A stretch of DNA of 64,000 bases, taken from Magnetococcales bacterium. GTDB lineage: Bacteria > Pseudomonadota > Magnetococcia > Magnetococcales > Magnetaquicoccaceae. Location: contig JAANAU010000014.1 in assembly GCA_011089965.1 (NCBI GenBank), positions 1-64,000 on the forward strand, in the 5' to 3' direction. Every line of letters starts with the position of its first letter. Position 1 is the first letter of the stretch. Below are positions 19,656 to 46,838 of this stretch, in pieces. The translations under genes were made by a program, and so were the position numbers. The notes under the pieces were generated by a model that made no database searches, was not told where the DNA came from, and saw only the letters and a program-made list of their open reading frames with translations.

Positions 19656-19732
19656 GGTTTTGATGTTTTCGTTTTTTAAAAAATAATTTGTTCATGTTTT
19701 TGTTTGCAAAAATTAAAAGATTAAAGTCCCAA

Positions 19733-19780
19733 GGGCTTCGCCCCTGGACCCCACCAGGGGGGTAACCCCCCTGGACCCCT
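19733..19780 (+). repeat. GC-rich intergenic palindromic repeat, copy 1
   Basis: Contains GGGCTTCGCCCCTGGACCCC, then a nine-base perfect inverted repeat (CCAGGGGGG, 19754-19762, with CCCCCCTGG, 19766-19774) and ACCCCT. A diverged copy in the opposite orientation is at 50969-51016. Both lie next to AT-rich tracts with AAAAAATAATTT. This looks like a dispersed REP-like family. It fills most of the tpiA-secG gap. Confidence 0.65.
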
Positions 19781-19848
19781 GATCATGGTGCATTTCTCGT
19801 GGTTGAATATGAGAATCACCAAACAGACACTAGAAGAAGGGTTGCGAG

Positions 19849-39035: not shown

Positions 39036-40769
39036 ATGAAAACGATTATTATTTTTGCCGCATTGTTGACCCCATGGCTCACCCTGGCAACCAACCCGCT
39101 GCTGGCTGCCACACCCACGGTCAGCCATCCCATTCCGGATCAGACCTGGAGCGCAAGCGGGATCAAACGGTTCCAGTTCCCGGTTGATACCTTCACAGAT
39201 GCGGCCGGCCATGCCCTGACCTATACCGCCACTTTGGGGAATGGCACCGCACTTCCGGCATGGCTGAGCTTCAACAGTGCCACCCGCACCTTTTCCGGCA
39301 ATCCGCCCAGTGGTCAAACCCGGCTCACACTGCGCGTGACTGCCAGTGACAGCCAGGGTGGACGGGTGACCGATACCTTTTATCTGAATTTCAGCGGCAC
39401 GCTCAACGATGCCCCGGTCGTAACCACCCCTCTGTCGCCACTGACCTGGAACGGCAGTGGCAACAAAAGCTTCCGCGTGCCTCTGAGCACCTTTTCCGAT
39501 GGGGACGGAGACACCTTGACCTATACGGCCAAACTGGGTTCAGGAGCCGCATTGCCCACCTGGTTGCGTTTCACGGCTTCGACCCGGACCTTTTCCGGCA
39601 ATCCCCCGGCAGGACTGGCACCGCTGACACTGCGGGTGACGGTCAATGATGGCCATGGCGGCAGCCGTTCCAACCAGTTTACCCTCTCTTTCGGCTCAGC
39701 CACCAATGATACCCCCGTGGCTGTGCCCGAAACCTTGACCGTGGCCAACCATCAAACCCTCTCCGATACCCTGACGGCTACCGATGGAGATGGCGACCGA
39801 TTGACCTACCGCATTGTCACCAACGGCACCAAAGGACGGGCCACCCTGACCAATACCACCACCGGTGCTTTCACCTACCGCCCCAACTCCGGGGCCAGCG
39901 GCACCGACACCTTCCGCTTCAAGGTCAATGATGGCCGCATCGATTCCAATACCGCCACCATTACCGTCAACATCACCAATCCCAACGATGCCCCGACCGC
40001 TGCCAACAGCACCCTGACCACCAGCCAGAACCGCGATGCCACCGGACAACTCTCAGCCAGCGATGCCGATCAGGATCCTTTGACCTATACCATCGTCACC
40101 CAGGGAACCAAAGGCGTGGCCACACTCACCAACACCACGGGCAGCTATCGCTACACCCCCAATACCGGTGCCAGCGGAACAGACAGCTTCACCTTCAAGG
40201 CCCATGACGGACGGTTGGACTCCAACATCGCCACAGTGACCGTGACCATCCAACCGACCCAATCCACCCCGGCACCCGTGGCCCGCACTGGACAGACCAC
40301 CTCTTATGCATCCGGAGATGATGGCGCACTCCAGAAAGGGGCACCATGGCCCACACCGCGCTTCACGGACAATGACAATGGCACAATCACCGATCATCTG
40401 ACCAATCTGGTCTGGATGAAAAATGCCAACTGTTGGGATCAACTCTCCTGGGGATCAGCCCTGAACCGCATAGCCGCCCTGAATGCCGGTTCCCAAGGGT
40501 GTTCGGGATATGTCTCCGGAACCCACACCAATTGGCGCTTACCCAATATCAAGGAGATGCGTTCCTTGATCGACCGTGGTCGCGTGACACCGGGACTGCC
40601 AGCCAATCACCCCTTCTCCGGTGTGCAATCAGACTATTACTGGTCCTCCACCACCACAGCCGGGACTTCGGGGGGCAATGCCTGGGTGGTCTATCTGGGC
40701 AGCGGTTTCATCAGCAGTGCCAGCAAGTCCCCCACCTGTTATGTCTGGCCAGTACGGGATGCTCCCTGA
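39036..40769 (+). CDS. Secreted cadherin-like repeat and DUF1566 (Lcl) protein
   Basis: A 577-residue secreted protein with a signal peptide (about 1-25, ending LLAA). Two dystroglycan-type cadherin repeats follow (about 28-120 and 125-220, each with LPAWLSFNSATRTFSGNPP or its like), then two Ig/cadherin repeats (about 225-315 and 317-405) with the recurring GASGTDTFRFKVNDGRIDSN motif. After a Pro/Thr linker comes DUF1566 (about 425-575), with NGTITDHLTNLVWMKNANCW, WRLPNIKEMRSLID and YYWSST. The DUF1566 domain is known from collagen-like and lectin-type adhesins. It is probably an extracellular binding protein. Confidence 0.85.
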   Translation: MKTIIIFAALLTPWLTLATNPLLAATPTVSHPIPDQTWSASGIKRFQFPVDTFTDAAGHALTYTATLGNGTALPAWLSFNSATRTFSGNPPSGQTRLTLRVTASDSQGGRVTDTFYLNFSGTLNDAPVVTTPLSPLTWNGSGNKSFRVPLSTFSDGDGDTLTYTAKLGSGAALPTWLRFTASTRTFSGNPPAGLAPLTLRVTVNDGHGGSRSNQFTLSFGSATNDTPVAVPETLTVANHQTLSDTLTATDGDGDRLTYRIVTNGTKGRATLTNTTTGAFTYRPNSGASGTDTFRFKVNDGRIDSNTATITVNITNPNDAPTAANSTLTTSQNRDATGQLSASDADQDPLTYTIVTQGTKGVATLTNTTGSYRYTPNTGASGTDSFTFKAHDGRLDSNIATVTVTIQPTQSTPAPVARTGQTTSYASGDDGALQKGAPWPTPRFTDNDNGTITDHLTNLVWMKNANCWDQLSWGSALNRIAALNAGSQGCSGYVSGTHTNWRLPNIKEMRSLIDRGRVTPGLPANHPFSGVQSDYYWSSTTTAGTSGGNAWVVYLGSGFISSASKSPTCYVWPVRDAP

Positions 40770-40788
40770 ACAAGAGAGGGGTGAACAC

Positions 40789-41358
40789 ATGAATACCCGC
40801 GCGATTCTTCTGACATGCACCCTGCTCTTTCTGGCCGCACCATCGACCGGCTGGAGCGATCCACCCCCGGCCCCGCTGGCCCAAAGCGGACAAACCACCC
40901 AATACCAGAGCGGTGATGATGGCCATCTGGAGAAAGGGGTGGCCTGGCCCACCCCCCGCTTCACGGAATCCGGCAATGGCACGGTGATCGATCAACTCAC
41001 AGGACTGGTCTGGATGAAAAATGCCAATTGCTGGGGCCGTCAGAGCTGGTCCGGGAGCCTTGAAAGCATGGTCGCACTCAACAACGGCACCCAAAATTGC
41101 AGCGGCTACAGCGGGACACATACCGACTGGCGCCTGCCGAACATCGATGAACTGCAATCCTTGATCGACTACTCCCGCAGCTCCTCCCTGCCTGCCGGAC
41201 ATCCCTTCACCGGTGTGCAATACAGCAACTACTGGTCATCTACCAGTTATGCCGGCAATCCCAACAATGCCTGGAACCTTTCGTTCAGTAACGGATATGT
41301 CGGAACTGGCACCAAAACCAACACCTTTTACCCATGGCCCGTCAGAGGCGGACAATGA
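40789..41358 (+). CDS. Secreted DUF1566 protein
   Basis: A 189-residue paralogue of the DUF1566 part of the preceding gene. The start at 40789 (MNTRAILLTCTLLFLAAP) gives a signal peptide and follows GAGAGGGG. It keeps GTVIDQLTGLVWMKNANCWG, THTDWRLPNIDELQSLID and SNYWSST, but has no cadherin repeats. The two genes are 19 bases apart and look like a local duplication. Confidence 0.9.
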   Translation: MNTRAILLTCTLLFLAAPSTGWSDPPPAPLAQSGQTTQYQSGDDGHLEKGVAWPTPRFTESGNGTVIDQLTGLVWMKNANCWGRQSWSGSLESMVALNNGTQNCSGYSGTHTDWRLPNIDELQSLIDYSRSSSLPAGHPFTGVQYSNYWSSTSYAGNPNNAWNLSFSNGYVGTGTKTNTFYPWPVRGGQ

Positions 41359-41359
41359 C

Positions 41360-41824
41360 ATGAAAAAGATAATCATTCTGTTCAGTCTCTGGCTGCTCCT
41401 GCTGCCGGGTCATGCTGAGGCGGTCTACCAGGTTGGGGATCGGATCGACGAGACCCTGGCTGAACAGTTGCAGATCACCCGGGGGGTGGCCGTGGTCAAT
41501 TTCTTTGCCTCCTGGTGCCTCTCCTGCAAAAAAGAACAACCCCTGATTCAAGGCATCAGCACGGCTCTGGCCCAACGCGGCATCCGTCTGCTCGGAATCG
41601 ATACCGATGAACAACTCAAGGAGGGAGTGGCCTTCCAGAAGGCGCTCGGGTTGACCTATCCGATCCTCAACGACAACAACCAGCAGATCGTTGCCCGCTT
41701 TGGCCCCCTGGGCATGCCTGCATTTTATTATCTGAAGGAACGCACCATCGTCAAAATGCGCCTGGGTGCCGTGGACCAGATCGATCAGGTGATCCTGTCT
41801 GATCTGAAAGAGCTGGCACCATGA
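41360..41824 (+). CDS. TlpA-like periplasmic thioredoxin
   Basis: A 154-residue exported protein: signal peptide MKKIIILFSLWLLLLPGHAEA, then a thioredoxin fold with WCLSC active site in VVNFFASWCLSCKKEQP and cis-Pro in PLGMPAFYYL. It starts two bases after the DUF1566 stop, so the gene is cotranscribed with it. It overlaps the lipoprotein gene by four bases. Reduction of a disulfide in a partner outside the cytoplasm is likely. Confidence 0.92.
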   Translation: MKKIIILFSLWLLLLPGHAEAVYQVGDRIDETLAEQLQITRGVAVVNFFASWCLSCKKEQPLIQGISTALAQRGIRLLGIDTDEQLKEGVAFQKALGLTYPILNDNNQQIVARFGPLGMPAFYYLKERTIVKMRLGAVDQIDQVILSDLKELAP

Positions 41825-42033
41825 GCCGTTTGTTGTTGCTCACCATCAGCGGCGTGCTGCTTGCCGGCTGCGCCTCAGATGTCAAAGCCTGGGAAAAGGG
41901 TATCCTGGCCCAACCCCACATGCAGCCCGGCGGCGGAAATTCCATCCAGGCCGTGCATGAACATGTCTACACCTCCAAGGAGGGCAGCTTCGGAGGTACG
42001 GGGATCGGTGGCGGAGGATGCGGATGCAACTGA
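41821..42033 (+). CDS. DUF4266 small lipoprotein
   Basis: A 70-residue lipoprotein with lipobox LLAGC near residue 16, the conserved VKAWEKGILAQPHM segment and a Gly/Cys-rich end (GGTGIGGGGCGCN) typical of DUF4266. The start overlaps the TlpA-like gene by four bases and the end overlaps the DUF3570 gene by 16. DUF4266 and DUF3570 genes recur as neighbours; the role is unknown. Confidence 0.9.
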   Translation: MSRLLLLTISGVLLAGCASDVKAWEKGILAQPHMQPGGGNSIQAVHEHVYTSKEGSFGGTGIGGGGCGCN

Positions 42034-43241
42034 AACCCAACCCCCTGGGAGTCATGGTCTGCGGGGCAGCCTCCACACTCCCGTTGATTCTGCATGCTGC
42101 CGAAGGGGACAAGATCGGCTTCAAACAGATGCGCTACCACGAGTCCGATGACCGGATCTCCGTGAACTACTCGCTGCTGGAGATCCAAAAAGAGATCGGC
42201 ACCGACCATTCGGTGCGGGCCACCCTTTCATTCGATACCATCAGTGGCGGCACCCCGATCTGGGTCGATGCCGTATCCGGTGCCAGCGGTTCAGCCACGG
42301 CCCAGGCCGATGGACGCATCACGGTCCTGCAAAACTGGGTGGATGAGGAGACCAACGAAACCCGCACGGTCGAAGCTGGCGGCAACATCTCCAAAAACGG
42401 CTTTGTCTATCGCAATACCCAACTGGAAGATGAACGCCGCGCCATCAACCTCCGGCTCACCCGACGCACCCCGGACCGTGATGAGATCACCATCGGCGGC
42501 AACTACTCCGAAGAGTCGGACTTCACCAGCAAAGAAGGGTCGCTCAGCTATCTCTACAATCTTGATGCCTCCCGCAACCGCTCCATCACCCTGGCCAGCT
42601 CCTATCAACTGAACACCGCTTTCCATCCGCTCTACGCCACCTGGAAGGATTTCCACGTCATCCAGACACAGCTCGGCTACACCCATACCTTCAGCAAATA
42701 CAGCTTGGGACAGCTCAACCTCTTTCACTCCCGTCAATCCGGCACTTTGAGCAACCCCTATCAAACCATTCTGCGCTTCTATACCACGGATGGCCTCTTC
42801 TGGCGCGCCGTGGAGATGCGACCCGACACCCGTACCAGCTCGGGCATCTCCGGAACACTGGTCACCAAAATCTTCGACGATACCGCGCTGCACAGCTCCT
42901 ATCGCTTCTATTCCGATGACTGGAAAATGGATTCCCATACCCTGGAGTGGATCGCCCACACCCGACTGGACGAAGATTGGGTCATCAGTCCGATGCTCCG
43001 TTACTATACCCAAAACCAGGCGTTCTTCCATAAATCCGGTGCCAGTGGCGACCATTTCAACGACATCGAATTCGGCTCCGTGGATCAACGGCTGGGCGAT
43101 TATCATTCAACAACATTAGGAATAGGAATCGAGAAAAAACTGACCGAAGGATGGCAACTGAATCTCCATGCCGCTTCCCAAAAACAGTCCAACGGCCTGA
43201 ACATGACCTGGTTTTCTTTAGGAATCGATTACGGCTTCTGA
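42018..43241 (+). CDS. DUF3570 outer-membrane protein
   Basis: A 407-residue predicted beta-barrel. A leader (about 1-28) is followed by alternating-pattern strands throughout, with GDKIGFKQMRYHESDDRISVNYSLLEIQKEIG near the mature N-terminus and FSLGIDYGF at the C-terminus ending in Phe, as for Bam-dependent barrels. The DUF3570 family occurs with DUF4266, TlpA-like and ApbE genes, exactly as here. Confidence 0.9.
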   Translation: MRMQLKPNPLGVMVCGAASTLPLILHAAEGDKIGFKQMRYHESDDRISVNYSLLEIQKEIGTDHSVRATLSFDTISGGTPIWVDAVSGASGSATAQADGRITVLQNWVDEETNETRTVEAGGNISKNGFVYRNTQLEDERRAINLRLTRRTPDRDEITIGGNYSEESDFTSKEGSLSYLYNLDASRNRSITLASSYQLNTAFHPLYATWKDFHVIQTQLGYTHTFSKYSLGQLNLFHSRQSGTLSNPYQTILRFYTTDGLFWRAVEMRPDTRTSSGISGTLVTKIFDDTALHSSYRFYSDDWKMDSHTLEWIAHTRLDEDWVISPMLRYYTQNQAFFHKSGASGDHFNDIEFGSVDQRLGDYHSTTLGIGIEKKLTEGWQLNLHAASQKQSNGLNMTWFSLGIDYGF

Positions 43242-43244
43242 TTC

Positions 43245-44120
43245 ATGAAAAAAATCAACATCGAGTTCCGGGCCATGACCACGACCTGTACCGTGGATCT
43301 GTTCACCACCCACGAATCCCAGGCCACGGCCCTGCTGCACCAGGTCCAACAAAACACAAGACAGCTTGAAAAAAAATATAATTTTCACGATCCCGACTCC
43401 TGGCTGAATCAAGTCATCAATCGCCGTTCGACCCATCATGTCACCCTCGACCCGGAAACGGCCTCCATTCTCCAAACGGTCCGGGAACTCAGCACCGCCA
43501 CCCGGGGCCACTTTGACATCACAACCGGAACCATTCAGGAGTGTTACCGTCAGCCCACCCTCGCTGCCATGCAGGAGTGTCTGGAGGAACGTCGACAGTG
43601 GTTCGGATTGCATGCCTGGGAGATCGATGGCCAGACCCTGACCCTCCCCCATCCCCAGACGCGCATGGATCTGGGTGGCGTCATCAAGGAGCATGCCGTG
43701 GATGAAACGGCACATCTCCTCAACACCCACGGGATCCACTCCGCATTGATCAACTTTGGCGGCGATGTGCGGGCCATCGGACACAAACCGGATGGCCGCC
43801 CTTTCTCGGTGGCGATCAAAAACCCGAAAAACCGCCAGGCCATTCTCACGGTCGTCACCATCGCCAATCAGGCCCTGACCACCTCCGGCTCCTATGAGCG
43901 GATCCATCAGGTGGGCAATGGCCGGTTTTCCCATATTCTCAGCCCAAGGGTGACCTCCGGGGAGATCCTGTCGGCCACCATGATCGGAGAGTCAACCCTG
44001 CGTTGCGGCGTCTACAGCACTGCCTTCATGCTTGACACCAACATCCCCATTCCGGATGATCTGAAGGTGATCCTGATTGACCGCAACCTCCACATCCTTC
44101 AAAACATCCAGACACCATGA
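43245..44120 (+). CDS. ApbE-family FAD:protein FMN transferase-like protein
   Basis: ApbE proteins attach FMN to Thr in exported redox proteins. The 291-residue product has the flavin-binding DLGGVIKEHAVDETAHLL, NFGGDVRAIG and TTSGSYER segments. Canonical ApbE also has an Asp and a Thr as metal ligands in a DALST-like motif; here the site reads CGVYSTA, so the Asp appears replaced by Gly. There is no signal peptide (MKKINIEFRAMTTTCT), unlike most ApbE. This branch may therefore use a different export route or act in the cytoplasm. It starts three bases after the DUF3570 stop. Confidence 0.88.
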   Translation: MKKINIEFRAMTTTCTVDLFTTHESQATALLHQVQQNTRQLEKKYNFHDPDSWLNQVINRRSTHHVTLDPETASILQTVRELSTATRGHFDITTGTIQECYRQPTLAAMQECLEERRQWFGLHAWEIDGQTLTLPHPQTRMDLGGVIKEHAVDETAHLLNTHGIHSALINFGGDVRAIGHKPDGRPFSVAIKNPKNRQAILTVVTIANQALTTSGSYERIHQVGNGRFSHILSPRVTSGEILSATMIGESTLRCGVYSTAFMLDTNIPIPDDLKVILIDRNLHILQNIQTP

Positions 44121-44578
44121 CAGCGCGCCGTTACTCTCTTGTGCTCATTGTTTCCTTGCTCATCGGTTGGAGCAGGCCAGGGACGACCGAGGTCTTTCTC
44201 GATCCGACCATCGCCTTCCGCACCCAGATGCAGGAACTCAATGCCCAGACCATCCAACTGACCTTTGAGATCGCTCCCGGCTATTATCTCTACCGGGACA
44301 AAATCCGGATCACACTCCACGAACCACCCGCCGGAATCACACCCGGCACCCTGGAATGGCCGGAACCAGCCAAAAAAACCGACAAGTTTTTTGGGGAGAT
44401 GATGGTCTATTACGACCAGGCCGCCATTCGGATACCCGTTCAGGGAGTCACACCCGCCAACCCGATCATCGGATCCTTGCATTGGGAGGTCCGTTTTCAG
44501 GGGTGTGCAGAAGCGGGTTTGTGCTATCCCCCGCAAACCCGCCTGCTCTCCATCGGCAATGCCCATGCCGTTGAGTAA
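44117..44578 (+). CDS. Free-standing DsbD N-terminal (DsbD-alpha) domain
   Basis: A 153-residue exported protein that corresponds only to the periplasmic DsbD-alpha domain, which normally passes electrons from the DsbD membrane core to DsbC or CcmG. The leader covers about 1-25. The redox pair is in FQGCAEAGLCYPPQTR, matching the DsbD-alpha Cys pair, and GYYLYRDKIRI is also characteristic. The membrane and thioredoxin parts of DsbD are missing. Overlap with the ApbE gene (ATGA) ties it to this module. It is a likely redox partner of the TlpA-like protein. Confidence 0.9.
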   Translation: MTARRYSLVLIVSLLIGWSRPGTTEVFLDPTIAFRTQMQELNAQTIQLTFEIAPGYYLYRDKIRITLHEPPAGITPGTLEWPEPAKKTDKFFGEMMVYYDQAAIRIPVQGVTPANPIIGSLHWEVRFQGCAEAGLCYPPQTRLLSIGNAHAVE

Positions 44579-44592
44579 TCACATCATGAAAA

Positions 44593-45834
44593 TCACAACA
44601 TCTGCACCAACAGGCCATCACGCAACTTTGGCTCAAACCAAGTGGATTTGGGTGGCATCACCTGACCGGAATCGGCCACGGCCATCAACTCCTCCAAGGC
44701 GGTCGGATACATCGAAAAGGCTACAGCCATCTCCCCGGAATCGACCCGTTGCACCAAAGCCTCCAGGCCACGCATGCCTCCGACAAAATCAATACGCTGA
44801 TCCTGACGCGGATCCGCAATGCCCAACACCGGATGGAGCAGACGCTCCTGCAAGATGGTCACATCCAGCCTCTGCACCGGATCGCTTTCCAGGTGGGGTT
44901 CCAGGGCCACCTTGAGACGAAACCAGCGCCCCTTCAGATACATGCCGAACTCGTGTCGTGCTGCCGGTCGCACCGGTTGCACAGCCGGTGCCAGGGTCAA
45001 CCTGGGAAGCGCGGCAATCCGATCCAGAAATGCCTGCTCATCCAGGCCATTCAGATCGCGCACCACGCGATTATAGTCCATGATGCGCACCTGGGTATCC
45101 GAAAAGGCCACGGCCAGAAAACGGGCATGGGGAGCATTGGGGTTTGGATCGTGCTGACGACGCGCCAAATGGACCCGGGAAGCCGCAGCCGCACGGTGAT
45201 GACCATCCGCAATATACAAGGCTGGCAACCGCTTGAAGGCCTCCTGCAATGCCGAGATCGCCGCACTCTGATCAACAACCCACAAGGTATGGCGCACCTG
45301 ATCCCCGGCCACGAAATCATACACAGGAGGATGATGGGGGATCCATGATTCAATCACCCCTTTGATGGCCACATCATGACGATGGGTCAGAAAAACCGGT
45401 CCGGCATGGGCATTCAGGGTGTCGGCCAATCGGGTCCGGTCGTTCTCCTTGTCCGGACGGGTGAACTCGTGTTTCTTGATCCGCCCCTCCAGATAGGCCG
45501 CCACCGAGGCCACTCCGGCAATCCCGGTCTGTTCACGGCCTTGCATGGTCAACCGATAGATATAATACCAAGGGTGGGCATCCTGATGAAGAATTCCATC
45601 CCGGCAAAAAGCGGTGAAACACTCTCTGGCCAAGGCATACACCCGCTCGTCATGGACCGGAATGCCCGGCTCCAATCCGATCTCGGCCTTGGAGACCCGC
45701 AAAAAGGATTCCGGCAGACCAGAAGCCATGGCACGGGCCTCCTCACTGTTGAGCACATCATAAGGAGGTGCTGCCACCCGTTGAACCAAATCGGAACGGG
45801 GACGCCAGGCGCAAAAAGGGTGCAACAGAGTCAC
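44593..45834 (-). CDS. DUF1015 family protein
   Basis: GTG 45834 has AGGAGGAG at ideal spacing; the frame continues upstream but lies inside the neighbouring gene. The 413-residue cytoplasmic product has the DUF1015 segments RVAAPPYDVLNSEEAR, KKHEFTRPDKENDR and LYIADGHHRAAAA. Its GTGA overlap with the REC-Hpt gene indicates cotranscription. DUF1015 proteins are often near serine or pyridoxal metabolism genes in other genomes, but no function is established. Confidence 0.92.
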   Translation of the reverse strand: MTLLHPFCAWRPRSDLVQRVAAPPYDVLNSEEARAMASGLPESFLRVSKAEIGLEPGIPVHDERVYALARECFTAFCRDGILHQDAHPWYYIYRLTMQGREQTGIAGVASVAAYLEGRIKKHEFTRPDKENDRTRLADTLNAHAGPVFLTHRHDVAIKGVIESWIPHHPPVYDFVAGDQVRHTLWVVDQSAAISALQEAFKRLPALYIADGHHRAAAASRVHLARRQHDPNPNAPHARFLAVAFSDTQVRIMDYNRVVRDLNGLDEQAFLDRIAALPRLTLAPAVQPVRPAARHEFGMYLKGRWFRLKVALEPHLESDPVQRLDVTILQERLLHPVLGIADPRQDQRIDFVGGMRGLEALVQRVDSGEMAVAFSMYPTALEELMAVADSGQVMPPKSTWFEPKLRDGLLVQML

Positions 45835-46838
45835 GATGCTCCTCCTGACAGCATAGCTATCTCTTTTTGGATGGTCTCTTGCATGATCTGCAAGGCAGAT
45901 TTCAACTGCTGCCACAGTTCGGCAGCCCCATGGAGTTCATTGCGGTGGCCCGCCTGCTCCAGGGCCAACGCCAGATCATACACCTGAACCCGGCCAAAAG
46001 CGCCGGTGGCTCCCTTCAGGCTATGGGCAGCCTCACGCACCTCATTGCCATCACCCGCAGCAATCGCCCGCTCAATACGCGCCATCTGACGCGGGGCGTC
46101 GGAAAAATAAAGCTCCGTCACCTCCCGCAACAGCTCCAGATCGCCATCCACCGTCTTGAGCAACCGATCCAGATCCACAATCAGCTTCTCTTCCACCCCT
46201 TCATCGACCACGGTTGCTGCGGATACCGGATGGGCATGCAGCAGCCGTTCCATCTCGGCAAACAGAATCGCGGCCCGCACCGGTTTGATGTGATACCCAT
46301 CCATACCCACATCCAGCGCCCGTTTCTGCTCCTCATCAGCAGCCAGGGCCGTCACCGCGATGATCGGAACCCGTCTGGCCCCGCTATGCAACTCACGCTC
46401 GCGAATCTCCTGGGTGGCCTGGAATCCATCCATGACCGGCATGCGCAGATCCATCAACACCAGATCCAGAGGTTTCTGGTTCAACAACTCCAACGCCTCT
46501 TGACCATGATGGGCCACCATTACCTGATACCCCTGCTGGGTCAACAGACGCATCATGAGTTTCTGCGTGAATGGATTATCCTCAACCAGCAAAATCTGAT
46601 GTTCCGTGGGTTTACCTGGTGCAGAGGGTTCAGCCACCACCACACTGTCCGGTTCCAAAGCAGCCTCGGTTGTACCCAGAATGGCCAACAAGCCATTGCC
46701 TGCCTGTCGAATCTGCAACAAATGTTCCCGGGCGCTGTCGGCAAGCGGCGCGCAGACGAGTTGTTGGGCATGACTCAAGATCTCCTCAGCCAACTGCCGC
46801 GCAGCATCCGTCGTTTCCAAGGGTGTCAAAATCGTCAA
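45831..46838 (-). CDS. Response regulator with REC and Hpt domains
   Basis: A 335-residue two-domain signalling protein. The REC domain (about 81-200) has acidic residues VEDN, the phosphoacceptor Asp130 in LVLMDLRMP, Thr163 and Lys185. The Hpt domain (about 215-330) has an intact His272 in AAHSLKGATGAFG. There is no DNA-binding output. The N-terminal 75 residues are helical and unassigned. The upstream hybrid kinase gene ends 12 bases before its start, so it probably relays phosphate from that kinase. Confidence 0.92.
   Translation of the reverse strand: MTILTPLETTDAARQLAEEILSHAQQLVCAPLADSAREHLLQIRQAGNGLLAILGTTEAALEPDSVVVAEPSAPGKPTEHQILLVEDNPFTQKLMMRLLTQQGYQVMVAHHGQEALELLNQKPLDLVLMDLRMPVMDGFQATQEIRERELHSGARRVPIIAVTALAADEEQKRALDVGMDGYHIKPVRAAILFAEMERLLHAHPVSAATVVDEGVEEKLIVDLDRLLKTVDGDLELLREVTELYFSDAPRQMARIERAIAAGDGNEVREAAHSLKGATGAFGRVQVYDLALALEQAGHRNELHGAAELWQQLKSALQIMQETIQKEIAMLSGGAS

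Follow-up and report, generated by a model that had tools for sequence, protein, structure and literature searches.

A genus-specific variant of the DsbD-type flavinylation system in a Magnetococcales bacterium

Gene clusters that encode DUF3570 together with an ApbE, a thioredoxin-like protein and a DUF4266 protein ending in CXC have been described as "DsbD systems" (Meheust et al. 2021, eLife, PMC8238504). There, two [S/T]GA[S/T] motifs of the Chlorobium luteolum DUF3570 protein itself were shown experimentally to receive flavin mononucleotide (FMN) from the cognate ApbE, and 316 of the reported DsbD-type clusters lack DsbD, so that the DsbD membrane protein is not strictly required. The function of the DUF3570 clusters was left open there. 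Our full-text literature search found no further paper on DUF3570 or DUF4266, and DUF3570 is not treated in the accessible part of a 2024 follow-up on flavinylated domains; the flavin of this system is proven in a homologue. Here we analysed a 64,000-nucleotide stretch of DNA (the window) from contig JAANAU010000014.1 of a Magnetococcales bacterium (assembly GCA_011089965.1; genome G000), in which seven genes (g1 to g7) occupy positions 39036-44578 of the + strand. Their TlpA-like/DUF4266/DUF3570/ApbE core is a member of the known DsbD flavinylation system, since Meheust et al. described the same association, and the locus is a genus-specific variant of it. An earlier sequence-only reading of this DNA had the core genes recurring together with no established function; the association itself is already described.

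All seven genes that this reading had named are present, as judged from open reading frames and Pfam, with every family matching far above its curated cut-off. The core comprises g3 (41360-41824), an exported TlpA/ResA-like thioredoxin by Pfam and NCBIfam (AhpC-TSA/thioredoxin, E-value 2e-11) with a CLSC active site of the CXXC type (41516-41527); g4 (41821-42033), a DUF4266 lipoprotein (4e-18) with an LAGC lipobox and a Cys-Gly-Cys-Asn (CGCN) C-terminus (42019-42030); g5 (42018-43241), a DUF3570 protein (1e-54) predicted to be an outer-membrane FMN carrier; and g6 (43245-44120), a putative flavin adenine dinucleotide:protein FMN transferase of the ApbE family (3e-51). It is preceded by two secreted proteins with the domain DUF1566, now named Lcl_C in Pfam, and followed by g7 (44117-44578), an N-terminal (alpha) domain of DsbD (DsbD_N, 2e-30). 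The locus thus shares with the described DsbD-type clusters an ApbE, a DUF3570 with [S/T]GA[S/T], a thioredoxin-like protein and a CXC-ended DUF4266 encoded together, as well as DsbD in cis in one relative and probably in a second. It differs from them in that the window carries the DsbD N-terminal domain alone, without a PF02683 DsbD membrane protein in the cluster, together with an inherited Ig/Lcl_C pair and one degenerate flavinylation motif (SGGT).

From g1 to g7, the genes are spaced by a 19-base gap, a 1-base gap, a 4-base overlap, a 16-base overlap, a 3-base gap and a 4-base overlap, which agrees with the tight packing noticed earlier for the last six. Hydrophobic N-termini of signal-peptide strength are found in all of the proteins except g6. 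The TTGACA promoter that had been proposed ahead of the genes did not hold up: a 9 kb region contained 8 promoter-like matches, against 3.5 +/- 2.2 expected from shuffles, and no TTGACA box was found upstream of the orthologous g1 in two relatives of the same genus (G009 and G007), so the box is weak evidence.

To place the locus among its relatives, a DUF4266 alignment was used as the survey query, yielding 80 named loci from one-per-species genomes and 7 from relatives (87 loci). Even sampling of the phylum (DUF4266 in 28/397 genomes) added 25 more, for a total of ~110 loci besides our own. TlpA-DUF4266-DUF3570 was nearly constant across them, with ApbE in about three quarters and DsbD in a minority. 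The order TlpA-DUF4266-DUF3570-ApbE was seen in most of the 87 loci, about a dozen of which have DsbD, and was seen again in the phylum sample. Within the genus, G009 carries a ~60-65% identical copy of the module with the same seven-gene order in a different genomic context, and G007 carries the first six genes in the same order with dsbD at the end of another contig. This recurrence in a different context argues that the seven-gene order exceeds chance.

The last gene of the module differs between the window and its relatives. In G009 the gene order is otherwise identical but ends in a 626-amino-acid DsbD that includes the membrane and C-terminal domains. A full DsbD of G007 lies at one contig's end and apbE closes a different contig, which is consistent with adjacency. 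Compared with full-length DsbD, g7 is homologous to the N-terminal domain (nDsbD) and keeps both cysteines of its redox pair (CAEAGLC, 44504-44524) but has neither the membrane nor the C-terminal thioredoxin domain, and the alignment shows it ending in the linker that follows the N-terminal domain. A standalone DsbD-alpha was found in none of the ~110 other module loci, and every surveyed DsbD with an N-terminal domain that is not cut by a contig end also carries the membrane domain. Given the full-length protein in G009 and the missing standalone copies, g7 is, by these sequence comparisons, the leftover front part of a truncated DsbD, and DsbD-alpha as a genuine standalone component was rejected, contrary to the sequence-only reading. 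That reading had also made its case depend on co-occurrence in other loci, which turned out mixed: DUF1566 recurs in two other loci (of the same genus only) and full DsbD recurs, but standalone DsbD-alpha recurs nowhere. Downstream of g7, an intact convergent DUF1015 gene (44593-45915, - strand) has its 3' end 15 bp past the end of g7. This gene is located elsewhere in G007, G009 and other members of the genus, which makes the interval of 44579-44592 a probable rearrangement junction. With merely 14 bases between g7 and the intact DUF1015 gene, a frameshift or sequencing error as the source of the truncation was rejected. A ~50-base repeat at 19723-19783 of the window has further copies in G009, between apbE and dsbD (L018:8747-8827), and in G007, where it lies at the contig end beside apbE (L019:5-48).

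At the other end of the module, g1 (39036-40769; 577 amino acids) combines two He_PIG and two Big_9/cadherin-like Ig repeats with a C-terminal Lcl_C domain (1e-27), and g2 (40789-41358; 189 amino acids) carries Lcl_C (4e-30) without repeats. Among the surveyed loci, this pair stands beside the module only in three species of the genus (G000, G007 and G009), where Lcl_C genes form a small paralogous family (9-11 copies in each of these module-bearing genomes). In our tree, the module-linked g1 copies of the three species grouped together as orthologs (support 0.989), and so did the g2 copies (0.984). Considering that the surroundings of the module differ among the three genomes, the tree and synteny indicate that the pair is a co-inherited part of the module within the genus. 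The suggestion that the two proteins belong to the module is therefore upheld within the genus and fails for loci elsewhere, where no such pair was seen; a general module-DUF1566 association was rejected. The Lcl_C domain is shared with the Lcl adhesin of Legionella, but Pfam detected no collagen-like repeats in either protein. On contig C56 of G000 (L172:6436-13002), another Ig/Lcl_C protein is followed by a gene that by eye resembles a two-partner-secretion transporter; such a neighbour would fit a surface location of the Lcl_C family. In unrelated lineages, too, the module has large Ig-like, RTX or di-haem surface proteins as neighbours; this hints, without proving it, that the module repeatedly comes with surface partners. 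About 100 bases upstream of the g1 frame of G007 lies a gene for a NapC/NirT tetraheme protein (L019:5135-5707, - strand), which is absent from that place in the window.

The ApbE of the module differs from most other ApbEs of the same genomes in its N-terminus. The ApbE domain of g6 scores 174.9 bits (cut-off, 25.6), and neither a signal peptide nor a lipobox, as expected of an exported (extracytosolic) ApbE, is present, a point that the sequence-only reading had not made. The first possible start is at 43245 and an in-frame TGA lies two codons upstream (g5 and g6 share a frame and are split by TGA-TTC), so the protein is not extendable upstream. Using a simple hydrophobicity measure and the closeness of the start codon to the domain, we called a signal-like N-terminus in 0/79 module ApbEs versus 24/26 non-module ApbEs of the same genomes (30 control loci, 24 of them with a signal; four of the six without one were module copies). 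In a FastTree phylogeny, the module ApbEs formed one monophyletic clade apart from the others (84 vs 26, support 0.944). On these grounds the module ApbE clade is predicted to be cytosolic. Because the ApbE is signal-free and its DUF3570 substrate has a signal sequence, FMN is likely attached ahead of Sec export; this is the simplest reading. In PMC8238504, the expressed DUF3570 of C. luteolum was mostly in the pellet and was flavinylated there; by analogy, FMN addition to a non-native DUF3570 chain appears possible. A cytosolic ApbE is also known from Klebsiella pneumoniae (reviewed in PMC12052999), which likewise has no signal peptide, but its substrate is a soluble cytoplasmic fumarate reductase, whereas the substrate here is an exported outer-membrane protein.

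To evaluate the substrate, AlphaFold2 was run on a 65-sequence DUF3570 alignment. Our g5 model is a 16-strand barrel (mean predicted local distance difference test score (pLDDT), 89.7; predicted template modelling score, 0.83), and Foldseek comparison with the PDB returned generic outer-membrane barrels only. The signal sequence, even strand number, C-terminal Phe and barrel fold are all those of an outer-membrane beta-barrel. In outer-membrane barrels of this kind, both termini are periplasmic. In the model with this orientation, strand 3 carries flavinylation site 1 (residues 76-79, 42243-42254) at its outer end, and a 59-residue outer loop contains site 2 (residues 87-90, 42276-42287). Conservation is also concentrated on that side: 50/238 positions of the outer half versus 9/132 of the inner are shared by at least 70% of sequences (p=3e-4), and the 15 residues that reach 95% or more are all in the outer half. 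The model therefore suggests that both flavin sites are on the extracellular side of the barrel. Neither this placement nor the signal-less ApbE clade is stated in the part of PMC8238504 available to us.

Site 1 is SGGT and site 2 the canonical SGAS in G000, G007 and G009, and many relatives likewise have only one canonical motif. A canonical motif was found in 57/61 DUF3570 proteins with a cis ApbE versus 15/23 without (Fisher p=0.0025, a value that overstates independence because the sequences are related), and in 74/79 versus 17/30 when pooled with the second sample. DUF3570 proteins thus tend to lose the motif when the locus has no ApbE; such loci often read SSAS instead and carry di-haem lipoproteins. 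A third SGAS occurs in an outer loop of g5 (residues 340-343, 43035-43046); it is not conserved in G007 or G009, has no preceding Asp and is probably due to chance.

DUF4266 offers a candidate link between the thiol proteins and the flavin. In 69 sequences, C17, G64-G66, C67, G68, C69 and N70 are invariant, and the AlphaFold2 model consists of two short helices followed by a disordered tail. The sequence-only reading had proposed that a barrel and lipoprotein are matured by disulfide and flavin chemistry. The barrel, the lipoprotein and their flavin and thiol partners are borne out, with a flavinylated homologue on record in PMC8238504; disulfide maturation of the barrel is not, because the mature g5 barrel has no cysteine in its sequence. 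The CXC of DUF4266 and the TlpA-like protein look like an electron relay instead. As a tentative model, to which we give slightly less than an even chance, thiol electrons would pass from DsbD through TlpA and the CGCN tail of DUF4266 to a surface-side FMN that is added in the cytoplasm. Cytosolic ApbE would put FMN on the Ser/Thr of SGAS in the unfolded DUF3570 chain, after which Sec and the beta-barrel assembly machinery would insert the 16-strand barrel in the outer membrane, with the flavin loop at or in its extracellular mouth. Electrons from inner-membrane DsbD would then reach the TlpA-like thioredoxin and the flexible tail of the DUF4266 lipoprotein, which could contact the flavin, perhaps through the barrel lumen. 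The flavin in turn would reduce a surface partner or an extracellular acceptor; in this genus, the Ig/Lcl_C pair would be plausible surface partners. We infer in this scheme the timing of flavinylation, the direction of electron flow, the threading of the tail, the acceptor and the role of Lcl_C.

Several points weigh against this relay, beginning with that inferred electron direction. The flavin loop was modelled with low confidence (block pLDDT 64-72), so it could face the lumen or the surface. With site 1 reading SGGT, g5 may perhaps carry a single FMN. Four loci with a cis ApbE lack the canonical motif, and the relatedness of the sequences bears on the Fisher value given above. The remaining points concern the electron donor in G000. 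A profile search found no PF02683 DsbD/CcdA protein in the window genome assembly, although the family is present in 29/29 other module-bearing genomes tested, which makes G000 the sole exception among 30; with just three PF13386 (DsbD_2) relatives, which lie in apparent copper/oxidase neighbourhoods, the step from DsbD would be without its usual donor. In addition, the nDsbD of g7 is 49-55% identical to relatives that are themselves 68% alike, versus 59-65% against 61-69% for the other module proteins; by this comparison nDsbD has diverged more quickly than its module partners. With the membrane and C-terminal domains of DsbD missing from G000, either nDsbD would need some other electron source or the relay would be idling.

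It is possible that the module is instead decaying in G000: loss of most of DsbD would have deprived it of electrons, and the genes that are left would themselves be in the process of being lost. The missing PF02683 protein and the accelerated divergence of nDsbD would be consistent with decay, as would a truncation lying exactly at the rearrangement junction. Yet the seven frames are open and tightly spaced, their motifs are intact, and nDsbD keeps its cysteine pair; the divergence of TlpA, DUF3570 and ApbE is also close to that seen between relatives. The absence of a donor is also unproven. The G000 assembly consists of 80 contigs, and in nearly all relatives of the genus ccdA (which follows ubiD-tlpA-cutA, L114-L118) lies at most ~300 bases from a contig end, so that an assembly gap is possible and the absence of ccdA from assemblies is untrustworthy. 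The claim that G000 has no DsbD-like donor whatsoever is weakened by these possible gaps and by the three PF13386 proteins. Taken together, we consider decay unlikely.

A thiol oxidase at the outer membrane, in which dithiols of periplasmic or surface clients would pass electrons through the CGC tail to the flavin and on to O2 or another acceptor, making disulfides in secreted proteins, would reverse the direction proposed for the relay. The CGC tail of DUF4266 resembles the shuttle tail of yeast Erv2, and an invariant C-terminal CGC on a disordered tail, paired with a flavin, would be in keeping with such an enzyme. Both Lcl_C proteins have conserved cysteines and are possible clients, and G000 has lost most of the reductant DsbD yet keeps the remaining module. 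Set against this, the cis-encoded membrane partner, where present, is DsbD, a reductase; most loci have no Lcl_C protein; and Pfam detected no Erv/ALR-like domain (an FAD-binding helical bundle with CXXC) in the seven proteins. An oxidase is for these reasons distinctly unlikely. Least probable of all is a flavin-assisted gate for uptake or reduction of a metal or metal complex (e.g., ferric iron) at the outer membrane: the fold is a generic transport-like barrel and, in PMC8238504, VIT1 iron transporters occur in 25 DUF3570 clusters, but no metal transporter adjoins the window locus and the recurrent neighbours elsewhere are large Ig, RTX or di-haem surface proteins.

Should the thiol relay prove correct, electrons would have a haem-free route through the outer membrane, and an outer-membrane protein would, unusually, receive a large covalent cofactor ahead of its export. 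The MtrCAB porin-cytochrome conduit offers an analogy only; it shares an outer-membrane barrel as the proposed route outwards, but the window module has no multihaem protein, its cofactor would be a covalent FMN on the barrel and its relay would be thiol-based. A bolder proposition is that, throughout a whole bacterial clade, FMN is attached covalently to an outer-membrane protein in the cytoplasm and reaches the surface with it, the barrel and the CGC lipoprotein forming a haem-free electron conduit across the outer membrane; in this lineage the conduit would serve the Ig/Lcl_C pair, with DsbD swapped for another donor. In this full form we regard the proposition as rather doubtful. What our analysis adds is the truncation of g7, the co-inheritance of the Lcl_C pair, the signal-less ApbE clade, the predicted extracellular placement of the sites and the tendency of the motif to go missing along with ApbE. 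The truncated DsbD and the Lcl_C pair are mainly of specialist interest, and the family-wide observations carry more weight than the single locus.

Our survey also recovered other arrangements of the core. A second locus type (L020, L021, L068, L069, L075, L077, L078, L080, L091, L098, L099 and L101) has TlpA-DUF4266-DUF3570 with no adjacent ApbE and mostly SSAS instead of SGAS; nearby are a ~900-amino-acid lipoprotein with one or two CxxCH (HZS_alpha/PD40) and PSD2-type proteins. In three loci (L100:5287-7959, L108:5218-7989 and L168:7581-10355), a single frame lies upstream of DUF4266; in L100, the one in which domains were checked, it joins a CxxCH cytochrome domain, ASH/HYDIN-like Ig domains, a sorting-like tail and a TlpA thioredoxin. 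In genome G123 (L169:7766-10504, + strand), a single 912-amino-acid frame holds DUF3570 and, C-terminal to it, a second, barrel-like region; ApbE follows this frame.

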